In this document: positions 11,795 through 45,264 of the stretch, in pieces
Layout: each line of letters begins with the position of its first letter
Position numbering within the stretch: the first letter of the stretch is position 1
NCBI GenBank assembly: GCA_037043015.1
Contig: CM073330.1
Coordinates: forward strand, 10,930,512 to 10,994,511
Source: Bryum argenteum
Taxonomy: Eukaryota > Streptophyta > Bryopsida > Bryales > Bryaceae
DNA: 64,000 bases
Direction: 5' to 3'
Translations under genes and position numbers: made by a program
Notes under the pieces: model-generated
What the model saw: only the letters and a program-made list of their open reading frames with translations
Told to the model about the DNA's origin: nothing
Databases searched by the model: none

Positions 11795-12001
11795 ATGGCA
11801 CAACCAAATTTTCCAGCAAACCAACTTAATCTGCTTGTGGCAGTTGCTGGTCATGGTGCACAAACGGTCGGTGCTCCAGCCCCTGTGGCCGGGGCAGCTC
11901 TGCTTGGGGCTCGTACACAGTTTGATGTGGAGGCGGGCCTTTTGGGACCTATGCCCACGAAAAGCAACGAAGGGTGCCATATCCATGCCACCATCACTTG
12001 A
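11795..12001 (+). CDS. Small protein of a three-member family, copy 1 (68 residues)
   Basis: The function is unknown and I recognise no known family. The protein starts MAQPNFPANQLNLLVAVAGHG, has a short Ala/Pro/Val-rich middle (VGAPAPVAG), and ends in the block shared by all copies: FDVEAG, GPMPTKSNEGC, IHATIT. The start is chosen because the upstream leader (GATTGTGGAAGGCGG) is conserved in all three copies while its reading frame is not, owing to a small length difference just before this ATG. Copies at 35084-35305 and 44887-45264 (both minus) match in protein, leader and downstream DNA. The hydrophobic N-terminal half is too short and irregular for a confident signal peptide. Conservation of the ends across three diverged copies argues for a real gene. 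Confidence 0.6.
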   Translation: MAQPNFPANQLNLLVAVAGHGAQTVGAPAPVAGAALLGARTQFDVEAGLLGPMPTKSNEGCHIHATIT

Positions 12002-12742
12002 CTTGGTGGGATCATAACTTTAGATTCTGAATGTATTTGAACAGGTGTTCAATTCAATTCAGTATGAGGGTTGCACATGATCGCTTCCAATCGTTAAGTA
12101 CTCAAGAGAAGAAAAGGTGTTCAAGTTGGCTTGAATAATGTGTCTTGTTCAAGGTTGTTTTACATGACACACTTTCGGTAATGTTTGTCTAAATTGTCTT
12201 GTACGACATGTTTGTCGGATGTCCGAGTTCGACGGGAATGTCCGACCATACTAGATAATGCATAGTAAAAACATGAACATTTGCCTCTTCGATGTTGTTT
12301 ATCTTCTCTAAGAGAAAATGTTTATTTGATGTCATGACGTTCGATACTGTCGCATAAGACAACCCTAGTCTTGTTTGACTTATCATGGTTTATAGTGTAG
12401 GACTACTTTTGTTGTGTTCACAAACACTTTGAGTGAAAGAGTAGCCAAGTAGTAGTTGGGTTGACCTTCATGTGAATGGATGATTATTTACATGTTAGTC
12501 CAAGGTTTGAAGAAACTTGTGTGATTGAAGTTTTAAATATTATGTAAATGTGAAATGTTTTGTATCTACTTGTTATATGGTGTTTTGTTATTTGAGTTTG
12601 AATCCTATTGCTTTAAGAATTGGAGATCCAATTCGCTTTAAGAATTGTTGCCCTTGTTCCAAATTTAAATGGTGGACACTTTGAGGAACTGCTCAATTGC
12701 TCATGGGATGACAATACTTGTAGCTAATTGATCATAAATTGC

Positions 12743-13006
12743 CATGAACCCCAATTCCGTTAAAATGACATTATTCCGGTAAAATGGCACACCTCAACTA
12801 TTGAACTGTAGCTCAAAAACCATGTGATATAACAGAATTTTACGGTGATATTAGGAAAATTGAGTGACAATGTATATGAAGAAGTGATATTAAAAAAAAA
12901 ATTGTGATATTACAGAATATACCATTTTATATGAGCACAAATGTAAGATCTAGTGTGACAAAATGGCACATGGCATAGTGCCATTTTAACGGAATTGGGG
13001 TTCATG
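12743..13006. mobile_element. Short foldback/MITE element with 25-bp perfect inverted repeats
   Basis: Arms at 12743-12767 and 12982-13006 are perfect inverted copies beginning CATGAACCCCAATTCC. The AT-rich core has no coding capacity. No convincing target-site duplication could be read, so the superfamily is open. Confidence 0.65.
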
Positions 13007-13019
13007 TCATTGTTTGAAT

Positions 13020-14364
13020 GCTTTTAAAAAATGATGTTCACACCCAAACAAAGATCAAACGAAGATCAGTGCATTGCACTTGATAGCCAATTCACCAAAC
13101 TTTTGCTCTATATGATTTATCTTCAAATTGTTTGTAATCTAGGAGTGGCAACTCTTCAAAGTTCCAATTACCCACACATTGTCATAATATTCGAGAAACA
13201 TAAAAAGTACAAAGTGAAAAGTGTGGATGTGAAAAATTCTTGACACATGTATGAAACTTTGTACTGTGGTAACTATGAATACTTGTGATAGAAACAAATA
13301 AACCACAGTCAAGTGTATATTCAATTTTCATAATTTCTGCTAAGAGATAAAAGGAATAGTAAGATTGCACCCACTACTAGAATTTGACCCCATTTGCTAC
13401 ATGTTTTATTTTATCTATTTTTTCCATAAAAGCCACATACGGGAAGTAACTGTTAAACTACATATCAACACTTTTATGCTACAACAAAGTTTCAAAAGCT
13501 ACATTTCAACAAACATATGTTAAAACGTAGTTTAAGCTACTCCCCAAACGTGACTTTTATGAAAACACAAACGTAGCAAATGGGGTCATATTCTAATAGT
13601 GACCATCTTTGAATGCGCCATGCCAATCTTGTAGATTGAATCTTTGTATACGGCATGGAACAATCTAGTCCTAGCACATGTATCTTGAACAGTTAAAAAT
13701 TTTTAATTCAATTTTTAAAAAAATGTTTGACCATTACTCCAATTAGTCCAGTAGTACAGAATTCAGTTTTCTTCACCCTTCACCATTATGATCTCACAAT
13801 CATTTTTGAATGAGCATGTAATACTGATGCATCTATTCAGATACAAGATCTTCCGTTTGGAAGTATAAATAAAGTGAACTAGCTTTCTTACTTCAAGGGA
13901 ACAATGTTGTATTAACATTTTTGGTATGGACACCAAATTTCTTTGCAAGGGTTAAACTTAAATTCAATACTCATACATAATTGCTATGATAAGTAGATAA
14001 AATATTACTCACGCCAGAAGAAATAGAGAAACACTTAACCAAACTTTAGAGGACATATAATTCGGGGTTGTCTTATGCGACATTGTCGAACGTCATACAC
14101 AAACGACAGTCAGACATTTGCCCTTGGAGGAGGCGATATCGAAGAGGTAAATGTTCATGTTGAAAGAACATGTCGAACATGACATTCTAGAGAGACATTA
14201 CCGAACGTGTGTCATGTAAGACAACTTGATATAATCAACATGTAACATATAATCAATCACATGAAGGTTAGTCGTTTATTACTTTGGTACTTTTTTACTT
14301 GGAGTGTTCATCCTAAGAGAGAAGTCCTAAAGTGTGAATATGATATCAAAGATAGGTCAAATAA
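13020..14364 (-). repeat. Inverted relic of the small-protein gene segment (gene missing)
   Basis: This block matches, in the minus orientation, the DNA downstream of the small-protein genes. 13600-13950 matches 34410-34720 (GGCATGGAACAATCTA, AGCACATGTATCTT) and 44390-44600. 14060-14230 is an inverted match to 12130-12370 (GTCGAACGTCAT, CATGTAAGACAA). The coding part would be expected beyond 14364, where a CACTA MITE begins and unrelated repeat follows. The locus therefore looks like a duplicate that lost its gene. Confidence 0.55.
13372..13601. mobile_element. CACTA-type MITE with ACC target duplication
   Basis: The 230-bp element starts CACTACTAGAATTTGACC and ends as its near-perfect inverse (GGTCATATTCTAATAGTG). 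The CACTA ends and 3-bp duplication (ACC at 13369-13371 and 13602-13604) are typical of the superfamily. The paralogous segment near 34403-34430 reads straight through GATTGCACCATCCTTGAA, so the empty site is preserved. Confidence 0.85.
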
Positions 14365-14634
14365 CACTAGTAGAAAATGACACTAAAAGTGACGTCCGGA
14401 ATAACATGTCCGTAGTAATACAGTGTGCATGTTTTTGATTGACAATGTGCTTCTAATGACATCAAATAAATTATTATATATGTCACCTTTCCTATTAAAC
14501 TATGTCATCATAGATATAATTAGGTCCAAAATGACATTTTTCTATGTCATTTCGGACAGAAAGTCTCTTGTGTCATACCGGTGTACCCTACACTTAAATC
14601 CAGTCAATATATTAGGACATAATTCCTACTAGTG
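14365..14634. mobile_element. CACTA-type MITE (270 bp)
   Basis: It starts CACTAGTAGAAAATGAC and ends with the inverse of CACTAGTAGGAATTATG. Only the outer 13 or so bases pair well. The flanks (TAA left, AGG right) do not match, so the right side may have been rearranged. It sits exactly at the broken edge of the duplicated segment. Confidence 0.6.
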
Positions 14635-14649
14635 AGGGTTGTTGCTACT

Positions 14650-16500
14650 AAAGTGTATGCCCTTTATTCATGCTTCATCGGATAGGTCTAAAATTCTTAC
14701 CACACATACTATACTTGATTTGGGATCCACTCCAAGTAGTTACATCCAAAACAGACTTGGAATGAAGAAGTTATGATTTTTCAAAGTTTATGCATTTCAT
14801 CCAATTTTTTTGGTTTGGCACGTTTAGAGGTTTAGGGTAAACATGTGCCTTACTCACCAATGAACAAAGGATACAAAGAGCCTTGAGTCAAATTTACTCT
14901 TAAAATTGGTCTTTTGGCTCACGTACTAAACATTCCAAACTCATCCTGTAATGATCTTATTTCTCAACTTTAAATATTATAATCTCACAAACGATATGGA
15001 AGATTTGGGATTCATGTACGGTACCCGACAAGAGAGATATGAACACATGCATTTTTGAACCTGAATGTGTGAAGACTCCATAATTTGAAATGCTCTTATT
15101 CATTCAATTAAATTAGTTTAATCTTTGCTACTTGGAAACAACACCTATATGTAATTGCTCCTAGAGCCACATGCAATTTTATGAGAAACATAATTTTTGG
15201 CATTCACCTGAAGTTCACCTTGTTTTTGGAATTCTGCAAGTTGTCCATATCTCTCTTGCCGGGTACTGTACATGATCAAGTAAGGTACTAAATTCTACAG
15301 TTACATCCCAAAACAAGCTAACATTGAGAATTTACACCTTGTATTGAAAGATGCCACTTTTTATTGTGATTGTGTTTCTCTCAATTGATTGATGCATTGA
15401 TTGTTTAAAAAAGGAAAAAAAAAGGGCAACTTTGAGGCCTTTCGACTAGGAATTAAGAAATACGATACATTCTTTTTTTGGAAAATGCATCTAGCCACTG
15501 AGTTCATCTTCTATACAATTCAACATCCTAAATTCTGGCATGGACGGCATGCATGAAGTTACATTAGATCAGACACACAAAGGCACCATAAGCCTTGGCT
15601 TGGTGGTTAGGGTTCATGGACCTCAATGAGGAGGTCTTGAGTTCTATTCCCCATGTCGTCGTGGTGCTCACCACTATAGTCCACCCAAATATTGTGGGGG
15701 TCCTTGGACCTTGATGTATGGGTACCTCAAAGCCTTTTAGGAGGATACTATGTCATTCAAGTGTTTTCAAGACGCTAGAAACTAGCGTAGTTATAGTGTC
15801 CACCCTCGAGAGGGGAGAGTAGTATTCTTCCAGCTTCCCCTTGTCTGGTGGCCATCGGGATATTAGCATTACAAACGGACACTTCATTTACGCCGGCCCC
15901 TTAGAAAGAGACCGGAGTTTCTATCTATCTATATCAGACACACAGTTCTAAGAACTTTGGATGGATTGAACAAAAGCGCATTTGGAAGGTTCATTTTTAT
16001 GGATCCACATGGAGTATGGAGTACATCAATTTAACTCCTAATGTCAAAAACTCAAAATCAACCCTCACATGGTCGATTTGACTCTATTTAAGCTCTAAGA
16101 TTCTAAATATAGATCATATGACGTTGAAACTTTTTGCAAATTGTGAAGTTTTTCCACACCTGTCCAAAAAGTCATTTCAAGCTTCAAAATTCCTCATCCT
16201 TGAGGAGATATTCATGGTCAAAGTTTTAAAATCTGCCCAAACTGTGGTGTATGCTCATTTATTCCCTAAATCTGCCTAAAATCAATTAGATTGCAAGTAA
16301 CTTCGAAAATTCACTATAAATTGAGATTTTACTTTTTTAAAGTTTTATTGCTTGAACATGTAGAAGAGGTACGAAGGCATGATCTCACCATTTGGATTTC
16401 CAATCCAAGAATTTTTACATGCTTATTTTAAAATCAAAGACCAACCTTTATATTTGCAATTTAACTTACCTCCATGTGAATAATCAAGCATTTCTATACA
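14650..16500 (+). repeat. Long AT-rich non-coding repeat, copy 2, interrupted by a SINE
   Basis: About 14650-16020 matches 4880-5690, and 16060-16500 matches 3540-4020. The two sub-blocks are therefore in permuted order relative to copy 1. A SINE at 15582-15932 interrupts it; copy 1 shows the empty site near 5590-5640. Confidence 0.6.
15582..15932 (+). mobile_element. tRNA-derived SINE, copy 1 (full length)
   Basis: The head has an A-box-like TGGCTTGGTGG and a B-box-like GAGTTCTATTCC, the internal RNA polymerase III promoter of tRNA-derived SINEs. The tail ends in a run of CTAT units. A perfect 12-bp target duplication (ATCAGACACACA) lies at 15568-15579 and 15933-15944. Two more copies are at 33452 and 50481. 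No coding capacity; it would rely on a LINE for movement. Confidence 0.85.
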
Positions 16501-16519
16501 GTTTGATCGGTTTCGACAC

Positions 16520-17870
16520 TCTTTGTAGGAGGTTTCATTATATCTGATAAAGATTTTGTGTTCTTCATCATATGAGGGTGTGGATATTTTTCATGGAAAT
16601 TTACAATTTCAAGTAAATTATAGTAATCCGGTTTATTCGCATTCAAAATAAAAGTTATCTAAGTGTTATCTAAGTGTTTTTGCACGGCATCTATCGTTCA
16701 TTCTCAAGATGTAGATTTGAGAGAACCTTCTCGACAATTAGAATGGGACAGAGGGAGTATGTAACTTTCAGGTAGTCTTTGCAATAGTTGTGATTTTTAA
16801 GTAATATGTTGCTAAAATAGGAATTCTTAATGACGATCAACTTGTTATCAAAATGAGTGGGTTGAGCAATGATTTATGATGTAAAAATAAACATAGAATT
16901 AACGATATCTAAAAGATGACTTAAATTCTTGAAAGATTCTTCACATTGTGTCCAATTTTCGCTTTAGCAATAGGTTAGTATAATGAAGGGGAAAAACTCT
17001 CATGCTTAAATAAAAGTCTTGGGTGAAGATGGACTCAATGGAATTTGAACCAATTATTTCATTAGAGTGCTAGGATTACTATTGTCATCTTCAATGCTTT
17101 TAACAATTTGTAAAGGAATTATTAGAATCTTGTTCTATATTAGGCCCAATTGAATTTTTTTGACAAAGACTACCATATCCGCATGGCCAATTCACCACTC
17201 TAGTGCAAAATGGTTTTTGAAATTTTTGTTTTTGAATTCAAAAAACCTCAATTGGTGTTATTGTCTCAATGGTTATAGTCAAATTTTTAATCCTTGTTGA
17301 TCTTCTCGTCCACTCATATTTCTCAATGTGAGTTTGTGTGATAGTCTAGTGGTGATACTATATGAGTATATACTTTAGACCTCACATTTATGAGGGGTAG
17401 AATAGTTTTAATTTACTTACTACGTGTAAGTCACATGTTAGGTGCAACATGATAATAAGATTCATAGGTGTGACATCATTGAAAGGATAAAAATATTTTA
17501 CATTCACACTTTTTGAAGATGACCTACATGAATTAGTAGTTCTCCAACCAATCAGGTAAAGCAAAAGAGATGTGTGGTTTTGTACAATACATATGCAAAA
17601 GTTGAAATTGGAGTTGATTATGTAGATAGAAGTTTTAAGCTTAACCCCTAAAGGTTCTTGAAAACCCAAATGGTTATTTGTTGTGTTAGGCAATCTAGAT
17701 GGAGGAATACAAATTATTATTTTTGCCAAAAAAATTTACTAGATATTCCCTGTAGGTCTATGCAACAAAGTTTTTGAATGAGAATTTTCAAACTAAGAAA
17801 GATTTCAAATCAATTATTTTTTAGATCAGATTTTAGTTATCACATAGGACAGTAGAATAATTATCTTTAG
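16520..17870. other. AT-rich stretch without recognisable content
   Basis: I see no gene or clear repeat. A short minus-strand frame at 17729-17388 has no family resemblance and reads like chance. Confidence 0.4.
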
Positions 17871-17878
17871 TATTCTTT

Positions 17879-18264
17879 TTAACCCCTACGCGTCTCTAGT
17901 GTCGGGAAACAACATTTTGGATGCAAAGAAGAAACTTCGAAGAGCCATAACTTCTTTATTTAGGCTTTGTTTAGAACAAAGGGTGAGTTACAAATCAAGT
18001 CTAGTTTGTGTGTTAGAAGTTGTAGACCCAAATAATAAAGTATGAATAAATGGCATGCATTTTAGAAGAGACAACTTTTATTTCTGGGTTATCAAACATT
18101 TGGCATTGTTTTACCGTTGCAAGACAATTATGTGAGATCAAAAGTAGTTTTTTGTAAAGTTTCTTACATAAGTGTGATCTTTAGATGCATGCCAACAACT
18201 CTCTAGTTAGAAATTTTTTGATCGGAATAAATTTGGTATTGAATTTGCATTGATGTTTCACCTT
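17879..18264 (-). repeat. First unit of a tandem pair within long repeat copy 3
   Basis: It begins TTAACCCCTACGCGTC and runs through GAAGAGCCATAACTTCTT to a GTTAGAAA-type phrase before the next TTAACCCC at 18265. The following unit repeats the same text with moderate divergence, so about 385 bp is tandemly duplicated. The sequence is the reverse complement of material in copy 1. Confidence 0.55.
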
Positions 18265-19242
18265 TTAACCCCTAAACGTCCCTAGTGTCAAAAAACGACA
18301 TTTTGGATGAAGGGCAAAAACTTTGAAGAGCCCTAACTTCTTCATCCAGACTCCGTTTTTGACGAAATCACTTGGATTAGGTCACAAATCAAGTCTAGTT
18401 TATGTGGTAAAAATTGCAGACTCATACAATAAGTATGAATAAATGGCATGGATTTTAGTGCAGGCAGCTTTTGTTTTTGGGTTTTCAAACATTTGGCAGG
18501 TTTTTACCATTGCAAGCCAATTATGTGAAATCTAAAATAGTTTTTCATGAAATTTTTTTCATGGGTTTGATATTTAGATGCATCCCATCAACTTTGTAGT
18601 TGGAAGATTTTTGATCTAGATAACTTTGGTATTGGCTTTGCACTGATGTTTCTACGATAAAAATAGTGAAAAAATGGATGATTTTTGAAGAGCTAGATCT
18701 CCTTCATCCACCGTTAGATTTTGACTTTATTTTTTGGGATGGATTCCAATTATAGTCTATTCTTAGTGGTAGAAACCTTGACCCAATCGAGGATATATTG
18801 AAGAAAAGGCATGGATTTGAGTGCGAGGGGTCTAGTTTTGGACTGTTTTTCCTTTGTAAAATTTTTTGCAGTTTTCACGACTACAAGGCTACTCTTTGAG
18901 CCAAGATTTTTTTTGATGAATTTTTTTGGTACAAGAGTGTCTTTGAGATGAAGATGAACAACTTTCTAGTTGCTGATTTTTTAATGCAAATTTCATGTTG
19001 GTAGTATTTTCACTTCAAAGTGGAAATGATGGTATTTTGTAGCCTGTTTTGCGCACTAATATGTTACGATCTCGCAATCTATGAGGTCCCATGAGTCAAG
19101 TTTTGGTCCACATGATCTACTACAAGTCTATTACAAGTTTGTATGGTTGAGATCTGAATAGCTTATCTTTATTTTCATCTATATCACTTTTTTTGAAAAT
19201 GAGTTTTTGGCTAAAAATACCCCAAGGGCGTTTAGGGGTTAA
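18265..19242. mobile_element. TTAA-flanked element with CCCCTAAACG ends (978 bp)
   Basis: The left edge is TTAACCCCTAAACGTCC and the right edge is its inverse, GGGCGTTTAGGGGTTAA. The outer ten bases pair perfectly inside a TTAA at each side. The interior is non-coding and matches the reverse complement of 4190-5060 as well as 47745-48390. Related edge-bounded elements occur at 31439, 42085, 49213 and 53124. Superfamily not settled. Confidence 0.6.
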
Positions 19243-19593
19243 ACACCGTTTCGCTGGTATTTGCCATGAGCCCATCCACCCTATGTCCAATGGTGAGTTC
19301 AAAAAGTTTAATTACCACGAGCTAAGAGGACCAACTCACCAGTTTTAAGTATGAAAAATATGAACCTTGGTAACATTCATGACACTTACAAGAGTTGATG
19401 TGCTTCCTGGCGTTTGGATTATCTAAGACACAGAAAGGAATGTTGTTAGTCACATTCAAAAGATAAGATCATCTAAAAGATTCATCTCAAATCAACAATA
19501 TATATAGAAATGATAGGAAGTTGCTCTCTAACTCGAGGCTGCTTCGAAATCTCACGATTTATAAGCTTCTGTACCTCCTCTCCTCTTGTATGA

Positions 19594-19860: not shown

Positions 19861-19869
19861 GTCATAGTG

Positions 19870-23372: not shown

Positions 23373-23591
23373 TCAAAGGCAGAGCACGAGTTCTCGTTGT
23401 TGTGAATTCGGTAACATCAATATTAATTAGAAGCAAGAATGAACACACAACTTGATGGTGGGTGCATAGTACTCAGGTAAGCATTTCTTATGCCAGGCTC
23501 GAGGGTAGCACCTGCAGTTAGCCCCTTTTTCTCGACTTGTTGCACTTTTCACAATGGGCATGTGAATGTGAAGCCATCAGCCTCCGTGTCT

Positions 23592-23931
23592 CACTACTTG
23601 AATTTGAGAGGATTTGCAACATTCTATTCTCAAACGATCAGCCTCCGTGTCTCACTACTTGAATTTGAGAGGGTTTGCAACATTCTATTCTCAAACGTTG
23701 CTGAAGTTTCGCAACGTTTTGGAACTTGCTTGAGCAACATTCTTAAGTAAAAAAAAAAAGGTTTTAGATCATCAAGATCACCAAGCAACGTTATTTATAA
23801 TCGAGGTGAAAACGTTGCTTATTTTCTTGAGAACGGCGCTCAAGCAAGTTCCGAAGCATTGCTAGACTTGAGCAATGTTTACACAAAAGCGAGGTTAGTA
23901 ACATTGCAAAGCCCCCTCTTTTCTAGTAGTG
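23592..23931. mobile_element. CACTA-related MITE, copy 2, with a duplicated left end
   Basis: The right end TTTCTAGTAGTG at 23931 pairs with CACTACTTGAATTTGAG, present twice (23592 and 23653). A 61-bp unit covering the left terminus and adjacent flank (CAGCCTCCGTGTCTCACTAC ...) is tandemly duplicated. Interior phrases around GCAACGTT match the copies at 19594, 26256 and 27018. No matching 3-bp target duplication was seen. Confidence 0.7.
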
Positions 23932-23939
23932 CGATCTTG

Positions 23940-24750
23940 AGCTTCATGTGAGTGTAGTAATTTGACCACACAAAGAGGGTGGAAGAAGTGCTTCCACTTC
24001 GTGGTATCGCATTTGAAGACCTGTGCCAATCACAAATTCACAATGTAAGTGAAACTTTGCTTTCCTAGATCATAGTAAGTAGCAATCTATACGATTTCAG
24101 TATGTCAAGCGTACATTTTGCAACGGAGACTACGGATCAGAGATCCCGAGCTTACCCACATGCAAAGCACTAGTGCTGAATAACTTCACAATTTGGGCAG
24201 AGCCAGTACTTAATCTGCAAGGAACACAACGTCGAGTCAAAATCGTTGTCAGTAAGACTATGCCCTGTTAAAGAAGATTCTCATATCAAAACACTCCTCG
24301 ATCATGAGTATCAAGCGAAGATCCTCTCGTCAACACTATTCCGTGTGCAATTTCTTCCCTTCACATGTTCATGACCGTTGAATCCATAAAACTCTTGGAC
24401 AAAAAAAAAAAAGAGAAATCATTGGCTTACCTCGGAAGCTGCTCGTGAAAGGTTAAGAGAATTGCAATTCCTATGCGACCCAGAAGCAGGTGTAGGGTGA
24501 AACGATCTCACAGAGTAAACACAGTATAGAATAATCACAATAAGAAAAGTTGTTTGTGTGAATACTCATGTGACTGTGCAAATAAGACCAGTGAATGGAA
24601 GTGTGCATTCTTTCAAAGTCTTTAACGTGAAAGGGAAAGCTCACATACCACAAGAGATCATCATTGCCATTTACACTATCGTCGCAAAATGCGCACACAT
24701 CAGGCTCATCCACCTAATTCGCCGAAAACATTTCTCCGTGTATCACCTGT
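23940..24750. other. Stretch without supported genes
   Basis: No family resemblance in any frame. An A run lies near 24402. Confidence 0.3.
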
Positions 24751-24855
24751 CGCATTCCCTTCTCCCGCATTCCCTTCTCCAGCATTCCCTTTTCCTGCAT
24801 TTCCTTTTCCCGCATTCGCTTCTCTCAAATCCCCTTCATTCGCATTCCCTTTTCT
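24751..24855 (+). repeat. Minisatellite with 15-bp unit
   Basis: About seven imperfect copies of CGCATTCCCTTCTCC in a row, degrading to the right. Frames read through it only give a low-complexity HSLLPHS-type peptide. Confidence 0.8.
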
Positions 24856-25607
24856 TTCGAGCGCGACTAGCAAATTGCAGGAATTGAAATGAGTCATTTT
24901 AATGGTACATGTCATCCCGAGAGAACTCGTTATGAGGACTTGCTGATTACAGTTCGACCTTTTCACTATCTTTAAACATTTAGTTTTCAAAAAAGCCCCA
25001 ATGAATACCTCTACACTATGTTATGAAGCATATGAGCTTGTTTATCGACCAATTCTCACTTAGCGATGTAGATGGTGAGTCCCAGAAACATCAACTGGTG
25101 TGTCCAATGCCTGAGTAACCGAGTCGCATGTCGGATGCAATCCCACTCGAAGCCGGAGTAGCCTCTCTTACAGCCTTTAGCTGGAAGCCCGTTTAGTTCG
25201 GGACGTGTGGAGTACACTCGCCCCTTTAAACTCTTCGTCTTCATTATCTTCAGGGCATCTCGGTTCACTTTCTACCAGTGGGATGACTGGAGCAGTCGGA
25301 GCCTCCGACCTGTAGACGTCGTTGACATCGCTTAACCGGGGTTCCTCGTCGTTGACATCGCTTAACCAGGGTTCCTCTGGTCGGATGAGTGGAGCAGTTG
25401 GATTCTGGTACACTTCGTTGACGTTGCCGGACTTCTCTGGAAGTGAAGCGATTCGAGTTCTGTTAACGTCGTTGGGACTGCTCAACAGGGGTGCTATTGA
25501 GGAATGAGAGAAGCACTTGGACTTCGGATGACTTCGTTGACACAGCTCAACCAGGGTCCTTCGGTGGCAGGACATTCTTTGTACCACCATGTTCCTGGAG
25601 CGTTTGT

Positions 25608-26138
25608 TCACTCGTTCAGGAGCAGGGAGATTTGGAGCAGGGAGATTTGGAGAGGGACCTCAAGAGCAATTTTACTGTAGATCACTTGCAGAGTTTCAAA
25701 CTGCACGCACGTCATTAGTCTGTGAGACAAGGTGTGAAGTGTGAATCAACTGTGCATCTTAAATATTTTTTCAAGTGCTAAGTTATTAAGCGTTCAAAGA
25801 GAACTGAAATGAAAATGTTGGAAACCATTTGAATGTGGTACACCTGAACTCTATCACGTATCTCAAGGTCCCTTCGTTCTGTGTTAGGACGACTCAAACC
25901 TGGGAAGTATTTTGCCTGAATCTGTAACCAACATCAAAATTTTCAAATATCGGAATATATAACAACGATATCCGAGGAACCTCAATCAAATCAATTCCGT
26001 GAATGAGTCAATATTTCAGAAAGGCATGAAACAGATAATGTGAAACTCACAGATGTGAACGGTCACTTACACGAGATTGTTGCAGAGTATCGACTAACGA
26101 CTTCTTCAAATCTTCTAGGGTCGGGTTTACCACGAAAC
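25608..26138 (-). CDS. Three consecutive exons of an unrecognised gene
   Basis: Function unknown. On the minus strand, 26138-26071 encodes a piece with NPTLEDLKKSLVDTLQQSR and ends at a donor (CGT/GTAAGT). 25915-25844 follows an acceptor (ATTCAG) and encodes 24 residues including KYFPGLSRPNTERRDLEIR, ending CAG/GTGTAC. 25700-25608 follows GTGCAG and encodes FETLQVIYSKIALEV, then a duplicated LQISL, and a stop. Phases agree at both internal junctions, which would be unlikely by chance. A second frame (25611-25177), rich in repeats of the type EPRLSDVNDVY, overlaps the end and could be an alternative last exon. Upstream exons were not traced; pieces at 27.4-28.9 kb may belong to the same gene. 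Confidence 0.4.
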
Positions 26139-26255
26139 CTCACTCAATCACAACGCATTCAAGATCTCATAACATCTGAGACGCATCTGTTATTCGCATG
26201 TGTTCACGGAACTTGAAGTGTGAAGAAAACATGAGAGGATATTGTTTCTAGCTTC

Positions 26256-26546
26256 CCTACTACAATTTGACGGGGTTTGCAACGTCTTCTTCTTGAATGT
26301 TCCTCAAGTTTAGCAACGTTTTGGGACTTAGTTGAGCAACGTTCTCAAGAAAATAAGCAATGTTATCGAATCATCAATCATGTGAATCATCAAGCAACGT
26401 TACTAATATTGTTACTTATATTTTCATAGAGAATGTTGCTTATTTTCTTCGAAATGGTGCTGAAGCACTTAATCCCAAAACGTTGCATCTAAGCTTAAGC
26501 AACTTTGGAGGAAAAACGTTGCAAACCGGCCTCTTTTCAAATAGAG
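26256..26546. mobile_element. CACTA-related MITE, copy 3
   Basis: It starts near CCTACTACAATTTGACGG and ends near CTCTTTTCAAATAGAG. The interior has AGCAACGTTTTGGGACTT and TTGCTTATTTTCTTC, as in the other copies. The ends are worn. Confidence 0.6.
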
Positions 26547-27017
26547 CTTATCGATGGAACGAAGACTAACCTCATTCATCACGAATATATCACCACACAT
26601 CAGCTTTGGATGCATGTGGTGTGCGCTTCGCGATAGCCATGAAATATACTGCCACCATGTTGGATACCATGGTTTCGGATTCCTTTTTTGTCTCTAATCA
26701 GTGGATTTTGAAACTCCATTTTTAAAACAAAGACAAAATTGTAATAAGCTTAATATTAAGCTTAAAATTAGGAATTGAGAAAACAATGTTAAGCATTTGT
26801 ACCACTCATTATGTTTGGCCGGAACGGAGCATCAACGTGGGGGCTTTTCCTCAAGACCAACGTCGTATGTTCCAAGAGTCAACTCTGAACGCTTTCTTCC
26901 TGTATTTGGTTCCTATCATTTGATGATGTAGACACCATCAGGCGATGTGATTCCAAAGTTCTCCCGAACTTTCAACAATTTTTGTGTAGTAATTTAGGAT
27001 ACAACTAAATGAACTAA

Positions 27018-27309
27018 TACTACATTGAGGGGTTTTACAATTTAAGGGGTTTGCAACGCTTTTTATCAAACGTTGCTGAGGTTTAACAACGTTATGAAAC
27101 TTGTTTGAGCAACGTTATGAAAAAAGTAAGCAACGTGATCGGATCACCAAACATTGTTAATTTTGATTTAATTGGAAAAGTTGCTTATTTTCTTGAGAAT
27201 GTTGTTCTAAGAAGTTCCACAACGTTGACTTTTTAACTTGAGCAACTTTACACAAATTTTCACAACGTTTATAACATTGCAAACCCCCCTTTTTTCTTTT
27301 CTCGAAGTG
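27018..27309. mobile_element. CACTA-related MITE, copy 4
   Basis: It runs from ATACTACATTGAGGGG to CTTTTCTCGAAGTG. Interior phrases GGGTTTGCAACGC, CAACGTTATGAAACTTG and GTTGCTTATTTTCTTG match the other members. Confidence 0.6.
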
Positions 27310-33451: not shown

Positions 33452-33805
33452 GGCACCACAAGTTTTGGTTTGGTGGTTAGGGCTTAGGCCCTCAATGAGG
33501 AGGTCGTGGGTTCTATCCCTCATGCCGTCGTGGTGCTCACCACTATAGTCCACCCAACTATTGTAGGGGTCCTTGGACCTTGTTGTATGGGTACCTCAAA
33601 GCCCTTTGGGGGATACTATGTCAAGTATCTTCAAGGCACTAGTAACTAGCTAGAATCTAGCGTAGTTAGAGTGTCCACCCTCGAGAGGGGGAAGTAGTAT
33701 TGTTCCAATTTCTCCTTGTCCGGTGGCCATAAGGATATTAGCATTACAAACGGACACTTCATTCACGCCGGCCCCTTAGAAAGGGACCGGAGTTTCTATC
33801 TATCT
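33452..33805 (+). mobile_element. tRNA-derived SINE, copy 2 (full length)
   Basis: Same family as 15582-15932, beginning GGCACCACAAG and with box-like TGGTTTGGTGG and GGGTTCTATCC. Tail TTTCTATCTATCTAT. Target duplication ATGTGGATGAAGA at 33439-33451 and 33806-33818. Confidence 0.85.
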
Positions 33806-34309
33806 ATGTGGATGAAGAATATTGTAACTCCATTATTTGTACTCCTACATTATTCACGTCAACAGAATAAGCAAAAGCAGAAGTAAGAGTGAGTATACAT
33901 TCAAGAATAAATATGGTAATACGATGCTCAAGATGATGAAACTTTTAATGTGGAAAGCACAGCTTAGTGTAGAAAACCTGCTAATAAACTGAGAATCAAA
34001 GTAGAATGAATTGGTGAAGAAGCAGGCCAGGAATGGCCTTTAAATTGTTGAAATTTCAAGGCGTCCTGGTGCTCAATTATAATATCACCTTCCGAGTAAT
34101 AACTGGCCGAGCACTTTGAAAACTCTGGATATCCTATTTCATTTTCAGTATTGAATGTCAAGCCCTCCAATGCTTTTGATGTATGCCTGGACAGTAAGGG
34201 AGCATGCTACTTGTATGGTCAGTGGACATAGAGCATCACATGAAGTACAAAGTAAGTCAGACGTATATATGTGAGAAATTCCGCTAACATGTCGGGAATG
34301 TTCTTCGTA

Positions 34310-35083: not shown

Positions 35084-35305
35084 TCAAGTGATGGTGGCAT
35101 GGATATGGCACCCTTTGTTGCTTTTTGTGGGCATAGGACCCGAAATGCCCGCCTCCACATCGAATTGTGTACGAGCCCCAAGCAGGGCTGCCGCGGCCAC
35201 GGGGGCTGCCGCGGCAACAGGGACTGGAACGCCAACAGGTTGTGCACCACGAGCGGCAACTACCACAAGCAGCTGCAGTTGGTTTGCTGGATTCGCTTGT
35301 TCCAT
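35084..35305 (-). CDS. Small protein of a three-member family, copy 2 (73 residues)
   Basis: It starts MEQANPANQLQLLVVVAARG, passes through a Pro/Val/Ala middle (PVGVPVPVAAAAPVAAAA), and shares ALLGARTQFDVEAG with copy 1. It ends in GPMPTKSNKGC and IHATIT. The frame stays open upstream for another 68 codons, but that part is not conserved in the other copies, so the ATG at 35305 is preferred. The leader GATTGTGGAAGACGG matches copies 1 and 3. Function unknown. The near-identity of the last 20 or so codons with the other copies, against freely changing middle lengths, suggests selection on the C-terminus. Confidence 0.6.
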   Translation of the reverse strand: MEQANPANQLQLLVVVAARGAQPVGVPVPVAAAAPVAAAALLGARTQFDVEAGISGPMPTKSNKGCHIHATIT

Positions 35306-35742
35306 CGCTACCGACTGAAGGATACTCCGTCTTCCACAATCATAACAACTCACAATATTCAGCTCAACGATTCCACATATTAAGTTCAACACTTCTAGCA
35401 GAATCATACAACACCAGTCCTCGATATGATCACTGAAACTTACAGATAAGATTCCGTATGATACGAAGTAGTAATCACGATCGAACCAGGAAATTTCTCC
35501 AAATTTCAAATTTCACCACAATACTTAGCTAGTTCTCTGTCAATCAATACCTCTCAGCAGACAACCTTAACTTCGAAGACACGATCACCACTGTCAAACA
35601 AAGAGAATTAATAACCAGGATCGATACAAAGTAACCAGCAGAAACAGACTCATGTAAGTAAACGACGGAGGGCAGCAGAGACATACAAAGCAAATGACTG
35701 TCGCCTAGAGCTGGAAACTGTTAAGGTAGTGCACATAGTGGG

Positions 35743-36115: not shown

Positions 36116-36159
36116 CTGCTGCATGATTTGCCGCTGCCACCTTGTAGATACAAAACAAA

Positions 36160-37280: not shown

Positions 37281-37767
37281 GGCCTTTGGTAGATTATTTA
37301 GCATCAATTATGAACTTACTTTAGATTATGAGCGATTGATTCGATAAGAAAGGACTAGAGGAGGTAAAGAGCCCCCTAGTGGATCTTTAGTGCGATGATG
37401 AAGGAATAGAGGGGGTAAAAGGTTCCTTAATAGATCTTTAGTTTGATTAGCGTAAGTATTAGGAACTTGAGTTGGGTTAGAATTTACGATTGGCCTTGCT
37501 CAACTAACTTTTGATGTGCATCATTGTGTTTGTAATTTAAGTGTTTTAGTTTTGTTCAATTAACCTTTACATGATGTTTGTGAGTTACATTTGTTTGTAG
37601 AGGCTTTAAGACGGAGTGCGTGGAGCAGCGACCATTCATTCAAGAAGGCCTTAGTTAGGTTTTATGCCTTAATTAGGGTGAGGGTAAGTTGCCACTTTGG
37701 CCGCTCATATTATTTATTTAATAACTTGTTTCGAAGCTATCTTTACCTGCTCAATTTGGTTAGAGTA

Positions 37768-38005
37768 GGAGAAGAAAGGCCGTGGGCCTCCTTCTCCTTC
37801 ATCTAGTTCCACCTTTTCATATATCAATTAATCCCCTCTCTTGTATATTGATTTATCTTGTTCTTCTCCCTCCTCTCTCTTGTTATGTGTAGGTTGTAGA
37901 AGAAGGAAGGTCGTGGGCCTCCTTCTTGATGTTGTTTCTCTTCCTCTTGTTTTTGAAATGTTTGATAGATAGGAGAAGGAAGGCCGTGAGCTCCTTCTCA
38001 CTAAT
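37768..38005. repeat. Three copies of a purine/pyrimidine hairpin
   Basis: GAGAAGAAAGGCCGTGGGCC followed by TCCTTCTCC near 37770, and close relatives near 37897 and 37974, each pair a purine arm with a pyrimidine arm around GGCCGTGGGCC. Spacing is about 130 and 75 bp. Every copy can fold on itself. Confidence 0.6.
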
Positions 38006-38104
38006 GTTGATATTCTTCCCATTTGTTCGTATACTTGCTTTGTTCTCAAATATTGAGTAATATCTTCCCTCAATCTTTATCAAAGACATGTCGGTTTTTT
38101 ACCT

Positions 38105-38480
38105 CATCAGTCACTCAATTCAAATGCTCTGAGATTTCTAGGATAGATAGAGCTTCAAGAGAGCTTTCTAAAGGTATATGGAATGCCCCAATCCAATCTC
38201 TAGAGAGAGAAATCGGCTCCCAAAGTCGAGGTGTTGAAAACAATTGTCACCCCGATGGTGAACAAATCAGCTGCATTTGATCGGCAATTTGTCACAGAGT
38301 TCTGGTTGTATGGTCTTGGCATTTCTACGGTAGATAGAGCTCTAGTATAGCTTTTCAATTATATGAGGCATGCTCCATTCCAATAGGTAGAGAGAGAGAG
38401 ATATGAGCTTCCAAAGTCGGGGTATTGAAAAAGTTTTCCCGGGAGTGGCAAAAACCGTCACAGTTAAACGACAATCACTC
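38105..38480 (+). repeat. Tandem duplication of about 190 bp, two diverged copies
   Basis: Both units carry GATAGATAGAGCT-like, GGCATGCTCCATTCCAAT-like (AATGCCCCAATCCAAT in the first) and CCAAAGTCGAGGTGTTGAAA-like phrases in the same order. Confidence 0.6.
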
Positions 38481-38901
38481 GGAGCTCTTGGATCAAATGC
38501 TTCGGAGATTTTAGGGGTGAATGCACAATTGACTTAGCTTTCGAAAAAGCTATGATATGCCTAAAATGGAGCAAGGACAAAGAAATAAGATGCAAAAAAC
38601 TGAGGGTCACTCCCAAGCAGGGATGTCAATATGGACGTCTTTTGAGTTTTTTTGGTCGGACGGACGTCCGTCTACGACCGTCCGGACGTCCGTCCGGGGG
38701 GGTAAATTGGAATTACTAGGACAATAGTAAAATTTTCAACCATTAGATCTTATTGGAGCTCGCATTTAAGCCGTTCAAATCTGATATTGTTTAGAGCGAC
38801 TGAAAAAATTCGCTCCGATTTTTATTTTTATTTTTTTTTCCTGGACGGCGCGGGCGTCCGAAGCCGCCTTGGTGGGGAGCTAAGGATGGCGGCCACTCCT
38901 C

Positions 38902-39205
38902 TTAACCCTAACCCTATTCTAATTTATTCCAACAACCATTTTGAATTTCTTAACAACTCCCTACCTAAAGTTTTTCAAGATCCAGATTACACTATTTGGG
39001 GTTCCCGCCCAAATAAGATTCTCCTTGCTTTGAGCATTACGATCTCACTAATGGAAAAGAATCAACGGTTTAGATTTTACAAGTGACTAGAAACTCAAGT
39101 GAATTTTAAGATCCTACGGTTCGATCTTCTAAACATTGTTTCAAATGAGGCTTTATAAACATGGAGAATTTAGGCAATTTCGCATCAAGGATATCTAGGG
39201 ATTAA
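38902..39205. mobile_element. Small TTAA-flanked element nested in the hAT element
   Basis: Left edge TTAACCCTAACCC, right edge ATATCTAGGGATTAA. The core phrase GCATTACGATCTCACTAATG, then CAACGGTTT, parallels the interiors at 32400-32460 and 49600-49640. The ends are poorly matched, so the call leans on the interior. Confidence 0.45.
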
Positions 39206-40839
39206 GATCTCTTTATTTTATTTATAAATTATAACCATACTTAAGTTACTTTTGCAAATTGATTGATGATTCATTTAATCTTATTATCATGGTCCGGAAG
39301 ATGTTACTTACTTCGTACTATGTATGGTATGTTGATGTTTAACAACTTAAAAGAGAAAATAGGATGATGTTCATGTGTTTTCTAGTTTAAATTACGTATT
39401 TTTCTTCAATTCCCAAATTGCAAACTTTAGGAACAAGCCTAATGTCTTAATTCACCGTGAAGGGCAGTTGGTATTTTGGGGGTGTAAGTTCTTAGTGTCA
39501 TTTGCCAAAAACACATAGCATCATAAGGGTCAAATAAGTTCAAATAAAAAATCTTCACTTGAGGATAAGAAGACGCTTCCACAAAGATTACTTTTATTCA
39601 ATACAAATTTAAATCAAATGGGGTTAATATCAACTAATCACATCTTAAAATAATATATCATTGTATATTTGATCATGTAGTATTATGAAGTGCTAAAATA
39701 AGATATTGAAGATACATCACTTTCTACAAAAACCAAAAATAATATACGCCATAAACGTGGAAATGACTCATCTTCATTTCGGAGTTATGAACATTTACCA
39801 AGAACAAATAAATGAAAAATCTATATCTACAAATTGCCACTACGTAACTTGTTAAATGATTAGGAACATCTTATAGAAATATAATCTTTTATCCTCGCAC
39901 ATACACTTGAAAGACAAATATTAGCACATAATACTTTGTAGTATTGTTCTTCTAAATTTGGGTTGCATGAATTTGTATTGCAAGTTTTATGTTATATGTC
40001 TTTTTCCTTCACATATTTATATATTTATATGATGCTAATAGCCTTTCAATATAGTACATGATTGGATATTCACTCTAACGCTCAACCACTAAAGGCCCAA
40101 TCAACCATTTTGTGCTCTATTCCGAATTTTGACAAGATATATCTGATTTAAAAAGGATTCTTGTTGGACTTATTTTTTACCTCCGAGATGTAAGATGGGT
40201 TGGGAACCTCATTTACATTACAGAAGCTAGTTTGGAATCATGTATTGTTCACACCAACCCTTCAATCACAAACATGACAAGGTTTGCATAATATTGAATA
40301 ACTTATTATAAAAGGAAACTAGTAATATTCTTTATATATAAGTATTGGCCTTTTATATTTTATCATATAAGATAAAATTTAAGGAAACCATACAAATAAA
40401 TAAGTACTAAGAAGAGAAATGAGAATTTTATTTTGCTATTGAAAGATTTGGTGTCTTTAATCTATTACAAGAGAATTATTAACTATTATGAGGATTTCAA
40501 TTATAACAATTTAATCTAAGCATTAAGGTTTGTATATTGTTTTTGGGGAGAAAGTTCACAAGAGTTAGAAAACTCACATTTCTTAACACATTTATTTTTC
40601 CTTCAAACCCCCCCCCCCCCTAGCCTTTAGGGGTTAAATAAACAACCACCCATTTGGATTCAAATAAAATTTGCTTAGATACTTAGATCCGTAAATGGTT
40701 AGTAACTATAATATTTTTCATTATCATAAGTCAATGTGAATATATTGCAAATTCTATCAAAGCATGACATTGTACCCCTAAAAAATTCCAAGTGATTCAT
40801 GGATAGTTAAGATTCATATGAACAATGAAGCAAGACACC

Positions 40840-41120
40840 ATCCGGTCGCTCGGTCGATCGACCGGATTCCAATTTTAGATTTTTTTTTCCCCCTTAAATT
40901 CCGGTCGGGCCGTCCGACCGGTCGACCGCCGACCGATCGGTCGGCCGCGAGAAATCCAACGGTAGGAGGCTGCGGCAGTTGATCGGACGGCTATTGAGCT
41001 ACCGGTCGGCATGCCGGTCGCCCCGGGTCGGGCCGGTCGGCATGCTGGTCGCCCGGGCTGACGGCCATTCTGGGGGCCGGTCGCTCGGGCCGACGGCCAT
41101 CCTAGAGGCCGGTCGCCCCA
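40840..41120. repeat. GC-rich CGGTCG / GGCCGGTCG repeat block
   Basis: Dense copies of CGGTCG, GACCGG and GCCGGTCGGCATGC units in an otherwise AT-rich element. Many are inverted relative to each other (GGTCGATCGACC). This is the right subterminal zone of the hAT element. Confidence 0.75.
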
Positions 41121-41224
41121 TTTACCTTAAGTAAAAAGTCCAAAATCTCTAAGTCACGGACGCTCCCTTAACCCCCCGCAAACGTCCGGACGTCCGGACG
41201 CCGTGACATCCCTGCTCCCAAGAT

Positions 41225-42080
41225 GATCCGACGAACCGAGGAGTTTCTTACCTATTCTCTTCTTGTTTTATCCCATCATTTTCTTCACTTCATCTTTTCT
41301 TCTTGTGTTTTCCTCAACATACAACCTCTTTGTGACCAAAAGCGACCTCATGATGGTTTTTTGGCTCACATGCTCTTATTAGGTTTTGCGGAAGGTTGTG
41401 TGCTATTTACATGAAGGTGACAATCGTTACCTAGAAAAGCTCCATCTCTACCAAGACGTTCCACAAATACTCTTCTGAATGCGCATCTTGTCGTCAATGT
41501 CGTGTAGTGTCGAAAGTTGAAAAGTTGCAAACTTGCAGAATGAATTGGATCTAGACGGGGAGCAGAGCGACAGCAAGAGTCAACGTATTTTGAAAATTCT
41601 ATTGATATGATGAATAGTATTTGAAGGGCACTTGAAGTCACGGGAGCACTTTGACATGAGAATTGCATATTGAAGGGCTATTTTCCTTGAGGTATTTTTT
41701 GAAGTCTCAAAACCCATTGGAAGAGCACTGAAGACTTCAAATTTGAGTATTGAGTACCCCCTCCAAAATAGTGTTATTTTTTTTAAACTACCTTTTTGAT
41801 AAAAAAACAATATTGAAAAAATTATTCTAACCAGATGGTATTATAGGTGACATGGCTATAGTTGTATACATGCAGTTAAAAAAGAAATTTTTAGCACATC
41901 TATAATGAATTACACATAGTTCACACATAATGAGACGCGTCTTAGTGGTACCCATATCTGAACCTTACCCATCTTAAGATAGTCCAATCACTTGAATTTT
42001 GTCATCCGAAATATCGGTCATGTTTTTGTCCATGTGGGTACAGTCTACCCTCTATAAATGTTAACCCTTGGGAGTAAATA
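41225..42080. other. Stretch without supported genes
   Basis: No frame has family resemblance. Nothing repeated was noticed. Confidence 0.3.
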
Positions 42081-42084
42081 TTTC

Positions 42085-42944
42085 TTAACCCCCCCCCCCC
42101 CCCCCAAGCTATGAGGCCTGTTTTCAACACTTGGTACTTTCGACCCCCAAAAGCATCCTCTTTTTACACAAGTTACTGTAGGATTTTTTTCACTTTGTAC
42201 TGGAATTTCAGGATTGTAACTGTAGGTACTAGTACCTAACTTGTTCATGATCATATGCACCAAATCTCAAAGTGAGCAATTTGTGAGATTGTGATGTTCA
42301 ATGTTGAAAAAAAAATTGTTTTGCCTTGTAGTCAAAAGTGAAATCAGTTTTTTGGAGCCCAAGAAAACTTTTTCAAAAGAAAATATAATGTGCGTGTAAT
42401 CAAATTATTGTTCCTAGGCAAGGTAGGGACAGATTCATAGACTTTCAACCCTCATGCAACATAAAAAACACTGGAAAAAGCTTGATTCTTCACATGGGGG
42501 TATGCTGAAATTTAAATACAAAAGCCTATTATTGATGGTCAAAAAGGCATGTGAAGAATTATCATATAGAAAATCCAAACAATGAAAACATTCCATGGTA
42601 CCTTCTTTACACACATAAAATTATTTTTTTTGAAATAAGTAATACCTCAAATTTTGCTCAGATTTGATTTTATTGATTTGATTGTTTTGGGTAGAATCTT
42701 GAGAATTTGTAGGGATATACTACACTTCTTGGGCAAATTTCACCATGCCCTAATCTCAAAGTTTGGGAGTGAATGTTTCCTAAACTATGAGAAATTTTGA
42801 GGCATGAATGGTCTTGTTGAAAAGGTGTGAGGAAACTTTAGGATTTGCAAAAGGTTTTGACTTTACATGAGCTTAATATAGTAAGTCAAAGGCTGCCAAT
42901 GTCATGATGGTCATATTTTGGCCTCCTCAACCTTTAGGGGTTAA
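42085..42944. mobile_element. TTAA-flanked element with an expanded C-run end (860 bp)
   Basis: The right edge is CCTCAACCTTTAGGGGTTAA. The left edge is TTAA followed by about 17 Cs, then AAGCTATGAGGCC, matching the inverse of the right edge (AAAGGTTGAGGAGGCC) apart from the C expansion. Non-coding interior, with phrases such as AGTACCTAACTTGT shared with 47270. Confidence 0.5.
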
Positions 42945-42949
42945 CATTT

Positions 42950-44380
42950 AGATAGTCAATAACAAAAACATTTCGAAAAGACTATTTTCATTGTTGTCAT
43001 GTTGGACAAATCACTATTCATAGTGATGTATATCATCGGTTTAACACTTGTAGATTCAAAACTACAAAGAAGGGCGTATCATTTTGTTAACGGTCAACGC
43101 GTTCAATATTTTTAGTGTGTAGTGTGTGGAGAGTAGAAGAAGGTTAACATGTAGAATTTAGAGAGGGTTAACACTTAAAAGTGTAATATTTTTAAAGGGT
43201 GGACTGTAAGCAAGTTGGGTACGCTCATGCAAAAATTAGAGTCATGGGGTTGGTCTTCTTCCTTTAGTCCCATTTGGGCAATTCAAGCATTCTTTCTTTG
43301 GTAGATGCTAGGATTTGGAAATGGACCTTAGAAATAAGCTCTACTATAAAGTCACTTAGGCACAACTTAGAGTAAAAGTTCCAATTTGGGCCTCCAAGTG
43401 GGCCTATAGACTTTATTCTGCAAGGCCAATTTCACCGCCCACTTTGTAGATAAGGGCTTGAGTTAAGGCCCACTTCAATTTCAGATTTGGTAAACTCCAA
43501 ATGAGCCCAAGGCCTACCGGACCGCAATATAAAGTGCCCCTCATTCCTCTTTTTTGACCTTCATGCAAATTGTTTTTTAAAAGAAGGTCAAAAAACAACT
43601 ACATGCACTAGGTTAGATATATTTATTTTCTAAAGAATGTTGAACGATAAGTAGGTGGCTGTATGAATTTGTGAATTTTGGAAAAAAAAAAAAAAAAAAA
43701 TGGAAAAATTCCAAAAAATCTCAATTTTTGACAAATTTAGAAAGAAGAATTTGTAACATTACTAAAAGTTGTTAAGGTAATTTTTGAAGTTTTTGGAGGT
43801 TGCCCTAGTAAAATTGGTAATTGTTTGGACTTTGGTAGTGGGTTGGTTATGAACATACTTCCAAAAACAAGTTTTGAAAAAGTCTAAATTTAAACTTCTC
43901 GTTTTAGAATTCAAACCTAAAATTTCTAAATGAAGGTTCTTGAATTGAAATTTGACTTTACAAATTTTGTCACATACACTGTGTAATGTAGGGAGCAAAC
44001 AATAAAAATCTGAAGCAAAAATAATTATAACCCCTTCTAATGAGCTGCCTAAAATCCCAAAAACCCATTTTTGGGTTTCAAGAATTTTTTGGGGCTAGGA
44101 GCATACTCCTTGACATTAAAACTTAGGGGCTCTTTACGCTAATCCCTGCTTCCCCCTCCATTCCTCCCTAGGCGTGCCCGTTGACAGAATTTCTACGTGT
44201 CACAAGATTTCTGAGCATTACTTCTTATAGAAAGTTGTGGCTTCTTGTGTTGAGATTACTCCAAAACTTCCAACTGAGCATTTTTTAGGTCGACTTCTAA
44301 AGTCTGAAGGGCTATCATAGATTGTTATATCTTTTGAAATGTTAAACAATTTGTATAATAATTTATATTGCAACGTCACG
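42950..44380. other. AT-rich stretch, no supported gene
   Basis: Contains a 20-base A run at 43681 and short TTAACA-bounded phrases (43143-43175). No coding signal. Confidence 0.3.
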
Positions 44381-44886
44381 ATCTTGCATCAACTGAAGAT
44401 GAGCATGTACAAGTGATGCAATAATTTTAGATACAAGATCTTGCATTTGGAGGTAGTGAAAATAAAATGTACCAGGGTCAAGTGAAGGCACCTTCAATCT
44501 TTGCAAGGGTCAAATTCAAAGCCAAATACTTATATTAAAAGTAGATACTGAAACACCCACACTAAACGAAATATATAGAGAAACACACAACCATACATGA
44601 GGGTTGAACATGTGATCACTTACATGAAGGTCTGCCCCTACTACTTTGGCTACTCTTTTACAAAAAGTGTACACCCAACTAAAGTAGTCCTACATTATAA
44701 ACATAATAACATGTAAAGATACATCAAATAAGATATATTATTGATGTTATCTTGAACGATGGCTTTGGGTAATACCTCTTAAACAAATGATAATTGGAAG
44801 CATACATGTGCAATCCATATATAATGACTTGAACAAATGGAACAAATCCTTATGCAAATGGGATTGTCCTGAAGGGACGATTCCAG
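44380..44886 (-). repeat. Duplicated 3' flank of small-protein gene 3
   Basis: In the minus orientation this matches the DNA downstream of gene 2 and the relic at 13.6-14.3 kb: TACAAGATCTTGCATTTGGA near 44431, ATAGAGAAACAC near 44576, CATTATAAACATAATAAC near 44691. Confidence 0.6.
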
Positions 44887-45264
44887 TCAAGTGATGGTGG
44901 CATGGATGTAGCAGCCTTCGTTGCTTTTCGTGGGCACAGGTCCCGAAATGCCCGCCTCCACGTCGAACCCAAGCACATTGTTGAAGGCCGGGGCTGCCGC
45001 GGCCACACGGCCTGCCACGGGTACAGGCACCCCGACACCATGAGCAGCCACGGGCACAGGTACCCGGCCACCGTGAACAGCAACTGGCACAGGCACCCCG
45101 TTGTGGTGAACAGCCATGGGCACAGACACCCGGACGACTTGAACAGCCACGGGCACGGGCGCGGGCACCAGGACATCGGGATTAGCAACTGCCACGGGCA
45201 CCGGCACACCATGCGCAGCAACTGCCACAAGGAGCAGTTGGTTTCCTGGGTTCGCTTGCGCCAT
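44887..45264 (-). CDS. Small protein of a three-member family, copy 3 (125 residues, long repeat)
   Basis: This copy starts MAQANPGNQLLLVAVAAHG. It then carries a long run of VPVPVAV / VHGGRVPVPVAAHG-type units (roughly residues 20-90), an elastin-like Val/Pro/Ala repeat. It closes with FDVEAG, GPVPTKSNEGC and IHATIT as in the other copies. At the DNA level the repeat is built from GTGCCCGTGGC-like words, so its length can change by slippage. The frame also reads MDCGRR before the chosen start; the same bases occur as leader in the other copies, where frame is not kept. No domain is recognised. A secreted or wall-associated role is possible from composition, but no clear signal peptide is seen. 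Confidence 0.62.
   Translation of the reverse strand: MAQANPGNQLLLVAVAAHGVPVPVAVANPDVLVPAPVPVAVQVVRVSVPMAVHHNGVPVPVAVHGGRVPVPVAAHGVGVPVPVAGRVAAAAPAFNNVLGFDVEAGISGPVPTKSNEGCYIHATIT

Follow-up and report, generated by a model that had tools for sequence, protein, structure and literature searches.

A 64,000-nucleotide stretch of the genome of the moss Bryum argenteum (the window: contig C10, positions 10930512-10994511, in a genome of 258,844,377 bases and 25 contigs) contains three small genes, A1, A2 and A3, that are members of a gene family whose loci, at least 38 in number, form local clusters on three contigs (C10, C4 and C7). We hold with high confidence that this clustered family encodes small proteins under selection at the protein level, with a conserved C-terminal core and a middle that changes in length.

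A sequence-only reading of the window had proposed open reading frames of 68, 73 and 125 residues for A1, A2 and A3, and these lie exactly where it placed them. It was also right that an M-[AE]-Q start with NQL is shared, as both are present in all three proteins, and that the end is nearly fixed: the last 26 codons hardly vary, and FDVEAG, PTKSN and IHATIT are identical in 3/3. At the DNA level this end block is 90-91% identical across the three pairs (83, 84 and 144 nucleotides (nt) aligned). The middle does vary in length as described, from an Ala/Pro linker up to a 33-nt tandem repeat of 4.5 copies in A3. The same reading understated the size of the family, however, by giving it three members. 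Our count comes from merged searches of the moss's own genome with one DNA query and four proteins (P0001, one member each from contigs C4 and C7, and one from cluster B, an older C10 cluster), and all such counts are lower bounds. Three further matches, at C3:5802678 (expect value (E) 0.27, two stops), C2:16692293 (E 0.83) and C1:1378988 (E 1.92), were rejected as chance and lie outside the 38.

Inspection of the frames found 32 of the at least 38 loci to be intact and six to be broken. L019 has a stop in the tail, L055 loses its frame past the core, L049, L058 and L064 are without an N-terminus, and L045 carries ATA where the start ATG is expected. Counts of leader elements, indels, hydropathy, core columns and strings were made on a set of 32 members that includes the broken L045 and L055 and leaves out L063; of two cluster B copies with an identical protein it holds one. 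In a tree of the core nucleotides (63 nt, 31 members, L041 left out), rows group by cluster, as local duplication predicts, with 7 changes against a shuffled-label mean of 18.9 and none of 200 shuffles as low; it is important to note that support is good for only 5 of the 27 inner branches, and that near-copies inflate the label-shuffle test.

Coding evidence and selection

Across 20 paralogue pairs, every indel within the coding sequence is a multiple of three (24/24); for the flanks of the same pairs the figure is 14/83, made up of 7/47 in the upstream 150 nt and 7/36 in the downstream 150 nt. The comparison has limits, in that pairs share members, rows were picked as open frames, which biases the coding count upwards, and a few flanks align poorly (identity 0.41-0.60). 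Such a bias is hardly a sufficient explanation, given 32 intact loci of at least 38 and in-frame differences in length that reach 150 nt.

Purifying selection acts on the C-terminal block. For the three window copies, on which the earlier reading had suggested that the ratio of nonsynonymous to synonymous change (omega) be computed, it is 0.26 (A1-A2), 0.26 (A1-A3) and 0.15 (A2-A3), values that are not near 1 and that rest on few changes (3-5 synonymous and 3-4 nonsynonymous per pair). Three pairs between clusters A and B have 10.3-12.5 of ∼14 synonymous sites changed, near saturation, and 6.5-9.7 of ∼49 nonsynonymous sites, for a nonsynonymous rate of 0.15-0.23. Pooled within six groups that together hold 28 of the 32 members (L045, L050, L055 and L056 are in none), omega of the C-terminal block is 0.18 in A, 0.30 in B, 0.29 in C, and 0.14 (six rows), 0.78 (three rows) and 0.22 (six rows) in the C7 groups. 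The corresponding values for the middle, in the same order, are 0.37, 0.19, 1.65, 0.61, 1.08 and 0.52, so that constraint is stronger on the block than on the middle in 5/6 groups. Over the first 10 codons omega is 0.29 in A, 0.73 in B, and 0.36 and 0.38 in two C7 groups, while the contig-C4 group and the third C7 group have 3 and 18 nonsynonymous differences and no synonymous ones; with values so mixed, and two groups devoid of synonymous change, N-terminal selection is not established.

A second conserved feature lies outside the proteins. The sequence TTGTGGAAGGCGGAA, defined on A1, or a copy of it with at most two mismatches, is found within 300 nt 5' of the ATG in 21/32 members spanning three contigs, at 10-28 nt from the ATG in 17 of them and at 59-68 nt in four contig-C4 members. 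Shuffled leaders never matched as well for those 21 members (200 tries each), which are kin and hence not independent. In the same 300 nt of the B members, and of several from C7, no copy matches better than expected by chance. Since its frame to the ATG varies between copies, the element is more likely to be an untranslated leader than protein, and its conservation is that of DNA. For the 5' untranslated intron that the earlier reading predicted, candidate acceptor-like AG sites, read by eye, lie upstream of the element in several copies.

Conservation of this element as DNA, together with the six broken loci, is what might be expected if translation were incidental, the transcript being a regulatory RNA or the loci a decaying repeat with a fortuitous open reading frame. 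Against this stand the unbroken series of in-frame indels and a C-terminal block omega of 0.14-0.30 in five of the six groups, and we give the idea almost no credence.

At cluster C loci L029, L030 and L031 (contig C4, 9.71-9.74 Mb), the region ∼45 nt before MN[IF]DGQ is where the leader element predicts a MAQAN-like start. Cluster C member C1 has an in-frame ATG at this site (MTVANG...) and member C4 an in-frame CTG, and in members C2 and C3 the CTG is one base out of frame. From these sequences, either the start has drifted or member C4 may use a non-AUG start.

Table 1. Features of the three window genes (window coordinates) and the family clusters (contig coordinates)
Feature	Position	Strand	Remarks
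A1 open reading frame, stop included	11795..12001	+	68 residues; indel phase and pattern of substitutions indicate coding
A1 conserved C-terminal block, FDVEAG...IHATIT	11921..11998	+	26 codons; DNA alignment, omega
A1 leader element	11759..11773	+	21 nt 5' of ATG; element defined here
A2 open reading frame, stop included	35084..35305	-	73 residues; indel phase and pattern of substitutions indicate coding
A2 conserved C-terminal block	35087..35164	-	DNA alignment, omega
A2 leader element	35325..35339	-	2 mismatches; 19 nt 5' of ATG
A3 open reading frame, stop included	44887..45264	-	125 residues; indel phase and pattern of substitutions indicate coding
A3 conserved C-terminal block	44890..44967	-	DNA alignment, omega
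A3 middle, 33-nt tandem repeat	45014..45160	-	4.5 copies, 75% matches; codes VPVPVA-type repeats
A3 leader element	45275..45289	-	exact copy; 10 nt 5' of ATG
Cluster A	C10 10.942-11.017 Mb		6 loci: 3 inside the window, 3 within ∼23 kb past its right end
Cluster B	C10 9.288-9.553 Mb		5 loci; older C10 cluster
Cluster C	C4 9.709-9.740 Mb		4 loci; one further C4 locus at 12.344 Mb
C7 cluster	C7 13.150-13.291 Mb		10 loci
C7 cluster	C7 13.714-13.772 Mb		6 loci
C7 cluster	C7 5.855-5.963 Mb		6 loci

Protein layout and candidate functions

The proteins are 64-162 residues long in the 32 members measured, and A, P, V, G and N together make up 0.44-0.70 of their composition. An M-x-x-x-[ND] start related to MAQANQ is present in 26 of the 30 members counted, L045 and L055 being left out, and 10 have MAQANQ exactly; the four cluster C members begin MN[IF]DGQ instead. 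The middle is of low complexity and gains or loses repeat units in frame; in clusters B and C, and in several of the C7 members, it is a plain Ala/Pro linker. VPVPVA-type repeats are carried by A3-A6, with single stretches in A2, the C7 locus L056 and the broken C7 locus L049, and other members have GANVAAN-type repeats, among them L037 with nine copies of a 30-nt unit. The C-terminal core reads F-D-[VIL]-[EQ]-A-[GA]-x-[SLQ]-G-x-[MVL]-[PL]-[RKT]-[RK]-S-x-x-G-[FC], with single exceptions at D and at two of the G. Among 29 members (L041, which has a three-residue insertion, also left out), the columns hold F in 29, D in 28, A5 in 29, G9 in 28, [RK]14 in 29, S15 in 29 and G18 in 28. Past the core the tail is cluster-specific: IHATIT in A, RAKLIDETD in B, and LLDLPPL-type in C and C7.

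Like non-canonical phytocytokine precursors, these small proteins have a conserved C-terminal peptide, with the core constant and the tail beyond it varying by cluster. Our favoured explanation, which we put forward tentatively and by analogy, is that the protein is a disordered precursor whose C-terminal 20-30 residues would be set free to act as a lineage-specific signal or in defence. The precursor would be held inactive in the cytosol, without an ordinary signal peptide, until wounding or infection led a protease to cut at or near the conserved block; candidate cut points are the Asp after the invariant Phe and the Lys/Arg before the invariant Ser. The freed peptide would then act as an alarm signal or defence peptide, as do those from the systemin and Pep precursors of flowering plants. 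The working part would be the C-terminal 20-30 residues, the middle serving as a spacer. That the protein is mostly disordered is suggested, if weakly, by its low-complexity sequence and by an AlphaFold2 model of A3 (P0003), made on an alignment of the three window proteins only, in which the mean predicted local distance difference test score is 31.9 and there is no confident structure.

Secretion appears doubtful with hydropathy as the sole measure, clusters A and C being ambiguous. The maximum over a 19-residue stretch starting in residues 1-12 is at most 0.75 in 19/32 members. The earlier proposal of a secreted or structural peptide is not borne out, though cluster A may be secreted. The same N-terminal measure reaches 1.0 in A1, 1.5 in A2 and 1.7-2.0 in A3-A6, 1.2-1.6 in the contig-C4 cluster, and 1.1-1.4 in L040, L048 and L052.

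Known precursors offer a parallel. Pep1 is the C-terminal piece of PROPEP1. A review (PMC13157962) states that a metacaspase frees Pep1 after Arg69, that the precursors of systemin, PEP, GmSubPep and Zip1 have no predicted signal peptide, and that several peptide families are lineage-specific. The moss family resembles such non-canonical phytocytokine precursors (prosystemin, PROPEP, GmSubPep, Zip1) in being apparently lineage-restricted, a likeness claimed at the level of description. It differs from them in sharing an N-terminus as well, in having a middle with in-frame tandem repeats, and in being known from genes alone.

Several observations weigh against release of a C-terminal peptide. 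A C-terminal peptide alone leaves the shared N-terminus unexplained, and the tails past the core differ wholly between clusters, which is odd for one ligand. L053 carries N rather than D at the proposed Asp site. Cluster A and the contig-C4 cluster have N-terminal hydrophobic stretches, which may serve as a weak signal peptide or bring the protein into contact with a membrane. Cluster B reverses the pattern of constraint, its middle (0.19) being more constrained than its block (0.30), and the block omega of 0.78 in the three-row C7 group indicates little constraint. A more elaborate version would turn the divergent tails to account: IHATIT, RAKLIDETD and LLDLPPL would be three versions of a damage- or infection-released signal, read by different receptors, with the repeat-expanding spacer tuning the precursor, an undescribed lineage-specific system. 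This we think rather improbable.

The shared N-terminus would be given a role if the protein were instead an intracellular adaptor, in which partners are bound by two short linear motifs, the MAQANQ-like start and the C-terminal core, joined by the repeat middle as a flexible tether of drifting length. We consider this tentative explanation nearly as likely as the precursor. It agrees with ends common to the members and a middle free in length, with the lack of a clearly hydrophobic N-terminus in 19/32 members, and with the failure of AlphaFold2 to yield a confident structure for A3. However, no known motif was recognised, nothing exceeds the Pfam or NCBIfam cut-offs, and the contig-C4 cluster is without the MAQANQ start. 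Furthermore, dozens of clustered, repeat-changing copies are, as a matter of general knowledge, commoner for defence-type genes than for housekeeping adaptors.

The layout of conserved flanks around a variable centre also recalls ribosomal natural-product precursors of the orbitide kind, with an N-terminal leader, one or more cores in the middle and a C-terminal follower for a cyclase. Clustering and the GVPVPVA- or GANVAAN-type repeats fit this scheme, and there is precedent in the clustered genes for ∼50-residue citrus SCAmpP precursors (PMC4409773) and in multi-core plant precursors (PMC11253845; PMC9308333). The moss genes likewise make up a multigene family that lies in clusters and encodes very small proteins. 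SCAmpPs have a hypervariable 5-10-mer core amid a conserved rest, an intron in the coding region and a -WSE- N-terminal processing site (PMC4409773). The moss family lacks such a hypervariable core, in that the middles of close paralogues differ mostly by repeat number; its reading frame is open without an intron, and -WSE- occurs in 0/32 members. Middle omega is 0.19-0.61 in 4/6 groups, with 1.65 in the contig-C4 group and 1.08 in the three-row C7 group, and many members have no repeats at all. Thus an orbitide-like precursor seems unlikely to us.

Still less probable is the elastomer-like repeat peptide, secreted or structural, that the sequence-only reading preferred. In its favour are the Val/Pro/Ala-rich repeats and hydrophobic N-terminal stretch of cluster A and the biased composition of all 32 members. 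Elastin-like proteins are defined by VPGXG repeats. VPG occurs in 0/32 members, the proteins are short, and 'elastin-like' fails as a family trait, as VPVPVA is confined to cluster A and the C7 loci L056 and L049; B, C and several C7 members are without repeats. Greater constraint on the tail than on the middle in 5/6 groups also argues against it. The probability that remains after these explanations belongs to functions that we have not thought of.

Genomic surroundings and place among known families

The earlier reading knew of no named family with this end, and our searches agree. Ten family proteins gave nothing over the Pfam cut-offs (best chance match E 1.1), four gave nothing over those of NCBIfam (best E 0.082), and neither P0001 nor a 7-row alignment had a convincing relative among PDB sequences (best E ∼1). 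One core pattern run against GTDB prokaryotes and IMG/VR gave 159 and 5 pattern matches respectively, none upheld by tblastn. Even with E allowed up to 10, Pfam models of beta-helix (pentapeptide and hexapeptide) repeats did not match the two GANVAAN members included among seven query proteins. Family motif strings had no relevant match in literature text, and the family does not figure among the papers listed on peptides of mosses, on orphan genes or on the processing of precursors. We conclude that the family is not found within the sources searched (Pfam, NCBIfam, PDB, GTDB, IMG/VR and literature text), which hold no plant proteomes or transcripts, and that it is apparently lineage-specific as far as these collections show.

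The conserved block could also have been part of a transposon, a possibility that the earlier reading itself had raised. The evidence speaks against it: the members lie in local clusters (at least 38 loci), no element domain matches over the Pfam cut-off, and, as far as seen, the block is not in a dispersed element.

The window contains other features besides. Segments at 15618-15932, 33487-33807 and 50471-50794 looked like a linked gene and proved to be a genome-wide dispersed repeat of ∼320 bp, with 39 other full-length places 94-96% identical to the query among the 40 scored of 2731 first-look candidates. At 23571-27227 there is a cluster of repeats ∼60-90 nt long, some direct and some inverted, that are based on a GCAACGTT-type word and are possibly small inverted-repeat transposons. 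A Ty1-copia element spans 51918-63474 (gag 51918-52481, SH3-like 61145-61624, RVT_2 62592-63197), split by a GC-rich stretch at ∼57.6-60.9 kb that looks like a nested insertion and carries an 889-residue minus-strand open reading frame that matches nothing in Pfam at E up to 0.1. An LETM1_RBD exon at 483-803 (-) is part of an LETM1-like gene near the window's left end. A scan of 13 open reading frames of the window revealed no recognisable resistance or receptor gene. Elsewhere, the genome encodes IFT46 and SAM_LFY (the LEAFY domain), both matches being over cut-off; as a pair they point to a land plant, or a close alga, with motile sperm.

Small genes of this kind are readily missed by annotation. 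To our knowledge, few lineage-specific signalling or defence peptides have so far been described in non-seed plants, and the 20-30-residue tail of this non-seed plant family is a concrete target for peptide assays and peptidomics.

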